This document shows positions 42,107 through 43,781 of a stretch of 64,000 nt of DNA, in pieces. Position numbers and translations under genes: made by a program. The DNA lies in contig NZ_SBIV01000003.1 of the NCBI RefSeq assembly GCF_004765795.1, positions 248,001 through 312,000 of the forward strand, written 5' to 3'. This stretch comes from Halorussus marinus (GTDB lineage: Archaea > Halobacteriota > Halobacteria > Halobacteriales > Haladaptataceae). The notes under the pieces are model-generated. The model did no database searches. It was not told the origin of the DNA and saw nothing but the letters and a program-made list of their open reading frames with translations. Numbering within the stretch: the stretch's first letter is position 1; every line of letters begins with the position of its first letter.

Positions 42107-42583
42107 TTAGCTCGGGTCGGCGGACGCGACGGCGCTCGTCTCGCCGAGCGCCTCGTGGGTGACCGTCACGCTCGCCGGTAGGCCGCCGTCGAAGGCGAAC
42201 GACGCCTCGTAGTCGATCTCCGAGACGCAGTCGGCACACGCCTCCGCGTCGTCGCGCCGGACGCTCTCGACGGTCACGGCGAGCGAGTCGGCGTCGGGAT
42301 CGTAGTCCGCGCCGGCCAGCCGCGCGACGTGACACGCGTCGGCGCCCGGAACAGTCCCGGTGACCTCGACTATCCCCTCCTCGGCGTCGAAGCCGACGGT
42401 CGCGTCGTTCGCCGCCGTTCCGCAGTCGGCGTCGGTCATCTCGAACGACTCCTCGGCCAGCGTCGGCGCGGTCCCGCCTCCACCGCTTCCCTCCTCCGGT
42501 ACTCCGTATCGGTCGAGACACCCGCCGAGCGACGCGGCGGCGAGGGACGCGCCGGCCCCGGCGAGCAGTTCGCGTCGGTCCAT
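42107..42583 (-). CDS. Predicted Tat lipoprotein, haloarchaeal
   Basis: A 158-residue secreted protein. The leader MDRRELLAGAGASLAAASLGGC carries a twin Arg and lipobox Cys22. A Gly-rich spacer leads to a compact beta-rich domain with four Cys outside the leader (DADCGTAANDATV, ADACHVARLAG, EACADCVSEID), which could form disulfides. Repeated strands (SLAVTVESVRR, YEASFAFDGGLPASVTVTH) suggest a small immunoglobulin-like fold. Function unknown. Confidence 0.8.
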   Translation of the reverse strand: MDRRELLAGAGASLAAASLGGCLDRYGVPEEGSGGGGTAPTLAEESFEMTDADCGTAANDATVGFDAEEGIVEVTGTVPGADACHVARLAGADYDPDADSLAVTVESVRRDDAEACADCVSEIDYEASFAFDGGLPASVTVTHEALGETSAVASADPS

Positions 42584-42717
42584 ACGGACGACCACGATCT
42601 CGACTTTCATAGTCTTGATGTTTGGAAAAATAGGTCTTTGAGTCTCCCGTGCCTACGTCTCTCACTGGACGCCCAGACCGTAACCCCTATTAGTTGAACC
42701 GGCCAACGTAGAGTTGA

Positions 42718-42790
42718 GTCCTGATAGGGTAGTGGACTATCCTCTTGGCTTGCGGAGCCAGGGACCGGAGTTCAAATCTCCGTCAGGACG
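42718..42790 (+). tRNA. tRNA-Arg (GCG)
   Basis: Cloverleaf with acceptor gtcctga / tcaggac and discriminator G, D arm around tagggtagtggacta, anticodon stem ttggc / gccag with loop ttgcgga (anticodon GCG) and T arm ccggagttcaaatctccg. No intron, no encoded CCA. Its 3' half is repeated downstream. A TATA-like cctattag stands about 25-30 nt upstream. Confidence 0.95.
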
Positions 42791-42859
42791 CTCACTACGT
42801 TTTCGACCTGACGTGGTTCGCGCTCGCGACGCTCGCGTGAACCTCCGTCAGGACGTTTT
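42769..42859. repeat. First copy of a 91-bp direct repeat starting in the tRNA-Arg T arm
   Basis: This segment begins at the tRNA T stem (agttcaaatctcc), includes the tRNA 3' end, and continues through ctcactacgttttcgacctg to gacgtttt. A second copy at 42992-43082 matches 89 of 91 bases. Direct repeats anchored on a tRNA 3' end are the signature of an integration site (attL/attR). Confidence 0.9.
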
Positions 42860-42927
42860 CACAGAGTAAGCACGCGAGGGCTTTCTGTGAATCTCACAAA
42901 TTGCGGAGTGAAAACGTCACCACGGAG
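42843..42927. repeat. Imperfect inverted repeat behind the tRNA-Arg repeat
   Basis: Arms at 42843-42862 (ctccgtcaggacgttttcac) and 42908-42927 match at 17 of 20 positions when one is reversed and complemented. A perfect inner hairpin (tcacaga 42859-42865 / tctgtga 42884-42890) lies between. The right arm continues as an inverted copy of the tRNA 3' end (acggagatttga, 42922-42933). No gene is present inside. Confidence 0.8.
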
Positions 42928-42991
42928 ATTTGAGCAGACGAGTCGCACGCCCGGAAGCACAACGGAGTGAGCATCCCGGACCGTCTCGGCC

Positions 42992-43082
42992 AGTTCAAAT
43001 CTCCGTCAGGACGCTCACTACGTTTTCGACCTGACGTGGTTCGCGCTCGCGACGCTCGCGTGAACCCCCGTCGGGACGTTTT
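42992..43082. repeat. Second copy of the 91-bp direct repeat
   Basis: Copy of 42769-42859 at a spacing of 223 bp, with two base changes (near its right end: c for t and g for a). It keeps the tRNA T-arm and acceptor 3' strand, but no tRNA 5' half. The stretch 42791-43163 holds only these repeats and the inverted repeat; I see no gene in it. Confidence 0.9.
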
Positions 43083-43163
43083 TCGCGCGACGCATCGACG
43101 ACGAGCACAGCGACTCGTCCGAGTCCCGAAGCCACTTGCTCGCCGACGTCGTACTGCTCGCGC

Positions 43164-43781
43164 ATGGACGACCACCTCCGGGCGGGCATCGCCGTCTACA
43201 ACGCGGGGGAGCACCACGCCGCCCACGACGCGTGGGAGGACCACTGGCTCGGCCTCGACGCCGGCACCGACGACGAGCGGTTCCTCCACGGACTCATTCA
43301 GTTCACCGCCGCGGTCCACCACGCCCACGGCGCGAACTGGGTGGGCGTGCAGGGGCTCGCCGAGAGCGCGGCGGCGTACCTCGCCGACCTCCCGGCCAAC
43401 TACCGCGGGGTGAACGTCGCCGCGGTCCGGCGGTGCCTCCGAGCGCTCGCCGCCGATCCGGAACACGTCGAGCGCGCCGCCCCGCCGCGCTTGCGCGCGG
43501 ACGGACTGGCCCTGGTGCCCGAGGACCTGGAGTTCGACGCCGCCGCGATCGCGGCCGTGACCCTCGCCGAGGAGTACGGCTACGACGAGGCCGTCATCGA
43601 GCGCGGCGTCGACTACGCCCGCGAGGACCTCGCCGACGGGCAGGCCAATAGCTCGTTCGTCACGTTCGTGATGGACTTCGCGCGCGACGCCGCCAATCGG
43701 GGGATCGTCTTTCGGCGACTGCGCCAGCACGTCGCCGAGCGACGCCGCCGCGAGACCGACGTCGAGGGACTGTTCGAGTGA
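43164..43781 (+). CDS. DUF309 domain protein
   Basis: A 205-residue helical protein with the DUF309 signature: AGIAVYNAGEHHAAHDAWEDHWL, followed by DDERFLHGLIQFTAAVHHAHGANWVGVQGLAESAAAYLADLP (two helices of conserved His, Gln and Ala). The second half is more variable and ends in an acidic/basic helix (LRQHVAERRRRETDVEGL). Function unknown; the fold is all-helical and metal binding through the His-rich helices is possible. The gene starts 82 bp after the last tRNA-Arg repeat copy. Confidence 0.9.
   Translation: MDDHLRAGIAVYNAGEHHAAHDAWEDHWLGLDAGTDDERFLHGLIQFTAAVHHAHGANWVGVQGLAESAAAYLADLPANYRGVNVAAVRRCLRALAADPEHVERAAPPRLRADGLALVPEDLEFDAAAIAAVTLAEEYGYDEAVIERGVDYAREDLADGQANSSFVTFVMDFARDAANRGIVFRRLRQHVAERRRRETDVEGLFE

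Follow-up and report, generated by a model that had tools for sequence, protein, structure and literature searches.

Repeated non-coding units behind a tRNA gene have a precedent in the 178-bp repeats (rtT) of E. coli tyrT, which are reportedly arranged in tandem with the tRNA 3′ end copied in each unit; rtT belongs to a single locus in enteric bacteria. In Methanopyrus kandleri a palindrome lies about 10 bp downstream of tRNA genes; its motif, CGTTA(N)9TAACG, is short and species-specific, and the part of the report drawn on here mentions no tail copy (PMC5217627). Small dispersed imperfect palindromes are also known as REP and BIME elements, some arrays of which alternate in orientation, according to the portion of PMC2817692 used here. 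The units reported below for Halorussus marinus and other haloarchaea are not described in the parts of PMC8371274, PMC4046053, PMC2817692, PMC5217627, PMC3119063 and PMC7714728 that were drawn on, nor in the literature as far as it was searched, namely in openly licensed papers, so that an earlier description elsewhere is possible.

The window analysed here is a stretch of 64,000 nucleotides of H. marinus DNA, in which a tRNA-Arg(GCG) gene occupies 42718–42790 of the forward strand according to the Rfam tRNA model (42718–42791 according to ARAGORN). It is followed on the same strand by an array of the order B-A-B, whose units all terminate in a duplicate of the tRNA 3′ end. The first unit B (42791–42855, 65 bp) consists of an inverted acceptor-stem hairpin, a second hairpin and a 13-nt tail copy (42843–42855). 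Unit A (158 bp), which separates the two B units, begins with the spacer hairpin X (42856–42923), harboring the palindrome GTTTTCAC..GTGAAAAC, and continues with T′ (42924–42933), a minus-strand copy that covers the T loop of the tRNA and the beginning of the 3′ T stem. The hairpin core follows at 42934–42993 (covariance-model match 42927–43001, 97.3 bits), and the unit ends in a tail copy (42994–43013) of tRNA positions 54–73, that is 42771–42790 of the gene, with 0 mismatches. The second unit B (43014–43078) closes with a tail copy containing 2 mismatches (43066–43078), and the residual flank 3′ of the array (43079–43126) resembles, by eye, the left spacer X arm of relatives.

An earlier, sequence-only reading of this DNA had reported a 91-bp unit repeated 223 bp further on with 89/91 identity, and exactly this is found at 42769–42859 and 42992–43082 (start-to-start distance 223, 98% identity). 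The repeat is a composite of the tRNA tail (22 nt), the 65-bp unit B and four T's. The motif said to recur inside the first copy, CTCCGTCAGGACG, is located at 42778, 42843 and 43001, and the inverted tRNA 3′ end noticed at the same time, GGAGATTTGA, at 42924–42933. The reported 20-bp inverted repeat and its hairpin are present as well, although the repeat is slightly longer and imperfect (42840–42862 and 42908–42930, 23 nt, 83%); a further inverted pair from the repeat search of the window comprises 42772–42790 and 42915–42933 (19 nt, 84%).

Genome-wide, the 20-nt tail occurs at two sites, the tRNA and the unit A copy, even with three mismatches allowed, which rules out chance as an explanation. 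Compared with shuffled sequences, the T′-core-T segment of the window folds more stably (z −3.3 as DNA and −3.9 as RNA), as do spacer hairpin X with its surroundings (z −3.6) and the acceptor hairpin of unit B (z −2.3), and the second hairpin of unit B is no more stable than shuffles (z −0.4). In unit B the last 12–13 nt of the tRNA are copied, with the pivot in the acceptor stem. Such partial tail copies are observed at 15 of 83 tRNA loci and in 0.6% of controls, and a second, smaller unit type like B may exist. Within 42500–43300, Rfam at E ≤ 1 gives the tRNA model and a weak tRNA-like model, both on the tRNA itself, and no match to rtT; with curated Rfam models at gathering scores, 14 loci yield two tRNA matches and nothing else. 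The claim that no integrase is left nearby agrees with a profile search, in which the nearest PF00589 match on the contig is about 84 kb away and all 13 matches in the genome are remote from the array. Given their lengths of 65 and 158 bp, the units cannot contain an integrase gene.

A match to the locus was found in 39 of 40 genomes searched (own genome included), and array strings were determined at 30 tRNA-Arg(GCG) loci including the window, with unit boundaries set so that every unit ends with a full or partial tRNA tail copy. No unit is present at six loci, while b is found at seven, A at six, Ab at three and bAb at two; the strings AbAb, bAbb, AAAAA, Abb and AAb occur once each, as does bA, which is the window itself as scored, its final b with two mismatches having fallen below the threshold. 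The arrays are short, hairpin-rich and variable. With 11 array strings in 30 loci, the arrangement is thus not identical in all relatives, an identity which the sequence-only reading had named as favoring a conserved RNA or terminator.

Further sites in the genomes of relatives matched the central part of unit A, and ARAGORN called a tRNA at 18 of 20 fetched unit-A-like sites; an intron-bearing tRNA is recognizable by eye at locus L040. A covariance model of the core, R1, built on 31 copies, gave 113 matches at E ≤ 0.01 in seven genomes (G000, the genome of the window, 5, G005 11, G006 21, G010 28, G009 12, G018 20 and G026 16). One hundred of these are positioned within 700 bp downstream of a same-strand tRNA, at a median distance of 72 nt. 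The preceding tRNAs bear 34 anticodon labels and represent about 30 tRNA species, some labels being doubtful; introns were allowed in ARAGORN, and one Leu-CAG label is Asn-GTT in another run. The 13 matches lacking a same-strand tRNA within 700 bp were excluded from the 100. They comprise two with a tRNA on the opposite strand (L137, L143), one at a contig end (L109), two next to sequences that look tRNA-like by eye and are called neither by ARAGORN nor by Rfam (L151, L087), two weak matches (L115, L166), four short core-only matches within another repeat (L107, L118, L121, L167) and two without any tRNA (L127, L170).

In a sample of the class, 135 of 145 genomes and 53 of 58 genera contain matches at E ≤ 1e-4. 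A sample of the phylum gave matches in 22 of 148 genomes, all belonging to the order of the window and all among the 24 genomes labelled as own or same order; none of the remaining 124 (of which 18 are listed) matches. An exact core pattern occurs in 32 stretches of an 84,980-species collection, with haloarchaeal titles throughout. No copies were found on plasmids, phages or viral contigs with one 174-bp query, run at a sensitivity meant for distant matches, and two exact patterns, a search that is not exhaustive. Core identities lend no support to a recent genome-wide amplification, as they amount to 0.655 between tRNAs within a genome and, between congeners, to 0.660 at other tRNAs and 0.711 at the same tRNA.

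Several loci deviate from the usual layout. At L039 (360–2273) two tRNA-Gly(GCC) genes 1.7 kb apart are each followed by an identical element, which is a tandem duplication of the tRNA plus its element. At L107, L118, L121 and L167 (each around position 900) the core hairpin is seen by eye without its T-loop arms. These arm-less cores come from two Halorussus genomes, are remote from tRNA genes and lie within what looks like another repeat with shared flanks, and three of the four run on into GCGACCGGGCGGGGGCTTTC or a near variant; a second repeat family seems to have acquired the core there. Upstream of the element at L087 (around 1000), a tRNA-Glu-like 3′ half is joined to an unrelated 5′ part on which the tRNA finders are silent, perhaps a broken tRNA or one with an unusual intron.

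The full element consists of a spacer hairpin, T′, the conserved hairpin core and a direct copy of tRNA positions 54–73. The window element carries all three family marks, namely the core-model match, T′ and the copy of 54–73. After 86 of the 100 tRNA-linked elements the last 20 nt of the own tRNA are found again (at least 16/20, median 20), and a good tail copy is absent in the other 14; with the tails of other tRNAs as control, 34 of 898 comparisons reach at least 16/20. From the 100 elements, 67 were used for a positional profile of the tail copy and 77 for one of T′. Identity of the tail copy to the tRNA is 0.90–1.00 over −21 to −1 and 0.82 at position 0. It falls from 0.90 at −21 to 0.58 at −22 (control 0.44) and is at control level at +1 (0.70 vs 0.66), and these sharp edges place the start of the copy at the T loop and its end at that of the tRNA. 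T′ matches the tRNA from position 54 to about 63/64, with little or nothing past 65, and is specific for the own tRNA (0.95 vs 0.54 in controls at position 57, 0.87 vs 0.54 at 62 and 0.68 vs 0.36 at 63). Duplication of the flank is detectable in 15 of the 67 elements.

The core is bounded by inverted T-loop-like ends, GATTYGAAC..GTTCRAATC. In an alignment of 119 distinct sequences, which is model-fitted and thus biased towards the model structure, 98.1% of 1157 stem cells are paired; the controls lie far lower, with 78.0% in shuffles and 29–41% in slid stems. The covariation score is 0.484 compared to 0.125 in shuffles. Among the 1157 cells, 13 are G.T and 5 are A.C. G.T pairs are rarer in the core (13/1135) than in tRNA acceptor stems, of which 81 from these genomes were counted (15/563, p 0.026), and on the sense strand they exceed A.C pairs without significance (p 0.096). 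These statistics lean towards DNA rather than RNA but are not decisive.

The tail copies follow the tRNA of their host. At positions within tRNA 54–73 that differ between species, both copies have the own-species base in 202 of 215 cases, one of the two in 13 and neither in 0 (97 pairs, which are not independent, with copies of at least 16/20 only). A fixed attP of a departed element was rejected on the basis of this tracking, together with the lack of a further genomic tail copy and of vector copies in the non-exhaustive search; a fixed attP on an invader would not lead to tails equal to each species' own tRNA. For tails to carry the bases of their own species, they must have been copied when the element inserted, been homogenised afterwards or been exchanged repeatedly with the gene. 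Derivation of the core from the body of the own tRNA was also rejected, as the bases 5′ of the copied T loop (−22 and beyond) mismatch the tRNA. The two interpretations offered by the sequence-only reading fare differently. Its tiny non-autonomous element is broadly supported, in the form of layered gene-free units whose number and order vary in relatives, whereas its integration scars are at odds with copies that track the host tRNA, with the occurrence of such units behind about 30 tRNA species and with the failure to find a vector in the collections searched or any other att-like copy in the genome. As a side effect, ARAGORN with introns calls extra tRNAs at L207, L214, L217 and L229 which end in tail copies and have the same anticodon, with the end shifted by one unit; the arrays can thus create false tRNA annotations.

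Spacer X and core vary independently between congeners at one tRNA, with identities of 1.00 for X and 0.52 for the core at Leu-TAG (in part due to a loop insertion), 0.58 and 0.95 at Ala-CGC, and 0.32 and 0.91 at Tyr. Near-identical cores with different arms are found behind different tRNAs, and in G010 the cores at Leu-TAG and at a Thr-AGT-labelled locus are identical. Evidence for permutation comes from a single species pair, the close relatives G101 and G131, whose upstream flanks are about 0.9 identical at most paired loci. Twelve locus pairs were hand-picked by anticodon, and Ser-CGA, Ser-GGA and Gly-TCC were re-analysed because the automatic pairing had taken a wrong tRNA call there. Tail-bounded units are permuted at Val-CAC, Ser-TGA and Ser-CGA, with identities of 0.91–0.97 for units in swapped order and 0.69–0.81 for non-matching units, to be read against a wide range between different tRNAs (99th percentile 0.89, maximum 1.00 in 1589 comparisons). 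The second Ser-TGA pair reaches 0.98 over the first 45 nt and only 0.83 overall because its core has been replaced, the replacement in G131 resembling by eye the Glu-TTC core of G101. Furthermore, each genome has gained one additional tRNA-proximal unit, G131 at Cys and G101 at Glu. As evidence to the contrary, the same unit is retained in both at Gly-TCC and Leu-TAG. Exchange at Leu-TAA and Ile-GAT is apparent by eye only.

The two R1 matches without tRNA are located in G009 (L170) and G018 (L127). At L170 the element (around 860–1010) immediately follows an open frame and its stop codon. A stretch of 31 nt or longer adjoins the element on both sides as a direct repeat, scoring 25 compared with at most 10 in 30 shuffles, and the inverted arm is, by eye, the complement of the upstream copy. 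The 3′ end of this open frame is duplicated beyond the element, and the frame reads by eye like a small zinc-ribbon protein. At L127 an 18-nt repeat, CGATTCGAATCCGCGAAC, flanks spacer and element; its score of 18, set against a null maximum of 16 in 30 shuffles, makes this a weak case on its own. Since both insertions duplicate their local target, starting at a T-loop-like motif, the templated arms appear to need a T-loop-like motif and not tRNA function, and the two sites are the main reason for preferring a DNA process.

From these comparisons of sequence we conclude, with moderate confidence, that the array is a local instance of T-loop-targeted and target-templated DNA elements, a family of haloarchaea whose members are very small, non-coding and non-autonomous. 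Such an element is made up of an imperfect but conserved core hairpin, to which a second one is usually added as spacer; its insertion sites would be DNA resembling a T loop, in nearly all cases within tRNA genes. The target would template both arms, about 10 nt in inverted orientation on one side and the rest of the gene, T loop included, directly on the other, and with a direct copy of this extent the tRNA would be left intact. As mechanism we infer template switching or recombination at T-loop sequences. A nascent strand may copy the target up to the T loop, pair with a resident core at its T-loop edge, copy this core, fold back on its own inverted copy T′ and rejoin the target, foldback or microhomology template switching thereby forming both arms. 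A single foldback path of this kind would give rise to a locus-specific T′, a shared core and a locus-specific direct copy. The direct T repeats could later recombine, resulting in loss, duplication and reordering of units, and tail copies would stay equal to the tRNA because any of them may become the real tRNA end. Counting against such DNA elements is the core itself, whose structure is conserved and occurs in almost the whole class, as could be the case for an RNA or DNA structure useful to the host. Further points against them are the 14 elements without a good tail copy, the detection of flank duplication in no more than 15 of 67, the reliance of the permutation evidence on one species pair and the excess, though not significant, of sense-strand G.T over A.C.

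The covariation of the core, together with its class-wide presence, its placement downstream on the same strand and the retention of tail copies but not of flanks, would also be expected of a conserved RNA, i.e. of cotranscribed trailer hairpins acting in tRNA 3′ maturation or as regulatory RNA, with the tail copy under selection. Such a function accounts for the covariation but not for the patchiness (5 to 28 matches per genome in one genus), the permutation or the sites without tRNA. Moreover, 6 of 30 Arg-GCG loci are unit-free, the order of units is not kept, G.T pairs are scarce, and the window element has no Rfam match beyond tRNA-like models. We regard an RNA function as quite improbable, and a DNA process is favored over it. 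Unequal recombination that duplicates the tRNA end and a terminator hairpin in tandem, with no dispersing element involved, would produce arrays such as AAAAA, the duplicated flanks and the exchange of X and core within a locus. It is very doubtful nevertheless, as one core family is associated with about 30 tRNA species and passes from one to another with its arms changed, and as the inverted T′ and the insertions outside tRNA genes are left over.

The permuted units and tRNA-proximal gains could, in a scheme we consider unlikely, stem from a tyrosine recombinase that excises and inserts cassettes, the T′-core-T hairpin then corresponding to attC and the tRNA to attI. The exact span of the copy from T loop to tRNA end, the conserved mismatched hairpin and the 13 PF00589 matches in the genome would suit this scheme, as would the preference of archaeal integrases for tRNA 3′ ends (stated in the part of PMC8371274 drawn on here). 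A recombinase acting on folded hairpins would explain order changes and tRNA-proximal gains equally well, and the target-specific T′ would remain unexplained by it. The arrays are without a linked recombinase, tail and T′ track the host tRNA unlike a fixed attP, permutation is also obtainable by duplication and deletion, and two insertions are outside tRNA genes. That dozens of haloarchaeal tRNA genes serve as anchors for integron-like hairpin cassettes free of genes, acted on by a host or selfish recombinase, is likewise rather unlikely; if true, this recombinase would continuously insert, remove and shuffle cassettes and thereby rewrite the 3′ ends of tRNA genes.

If instead the target-templated DNA elements preferred here are the right reading, mobile hairpins in 135 of 145 haloarchaeal genomes land in the most conserved sequence of tRNA genes and leave these genes intact. 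How tRNA 3′ ends turn into hot spots rich in repeats would thereby acquire a testable explanation, and archaea would provide a natural setting for the study of template switching or hairpin recombination. The tail copies would then also mislead tRNA finders and programs that predict att sites.

In order to compare the haloarchaeal units to known systems, integrons may be considered first. Shared with them are a fixed anchor, a structure-conserved imperfect hairpin closing the units, gain at the anchor side and reordering. The hairpin as a structure-conserved cassette end would be a resemblance in design only. Unlike integrons, the array has neither an integrase gene nor ORF cargo, about 20 nt of the anchor are copied, and many different tRNA genes can serve as anchor. 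The attC core of integrons is GTTRRRY / RYYYAAC, and the element ends GTTCRAATC differ from it in the fourth base, which is C and not R. With the att element of a tyrosine integrase the units share the direct repeat of the tRNA 3′ end (86 of 100 elements, exact in the window), while in the window no integrase is present between or beside the repeats. Casposons likewise insert at tRNA 3′ ends, but they encode Cas1 and PolB, for which the window insert of less than 300 bp has no room, and at tRNA genes they overlap 4–7 tRNA nucleotides, in contrast to about 20 nt copied here by gene-free units. REP and BIME elements differ from the units by the absence of tRNA/T-loop targeting and of target-specific arms; the REP consensus, in the part of the source drawn on, mostly starts with GTAG or TGTAG, a foot that is missing from the haloarchaeal core consensus. 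rtT and the units described here are both tandem, non-coding and located behind a tRNA, with a tRNA 3′-end copy in each unit, and the haloarchaeal ones differ in being class-wide, in following many tRNA species and in having a common hairpin core and an inverted T′. The nearest case in the papers drawn on is that of M. kandleri, which has in common with the haloarchaeal family a palindromic motif behind many archaeal tRNA genes.
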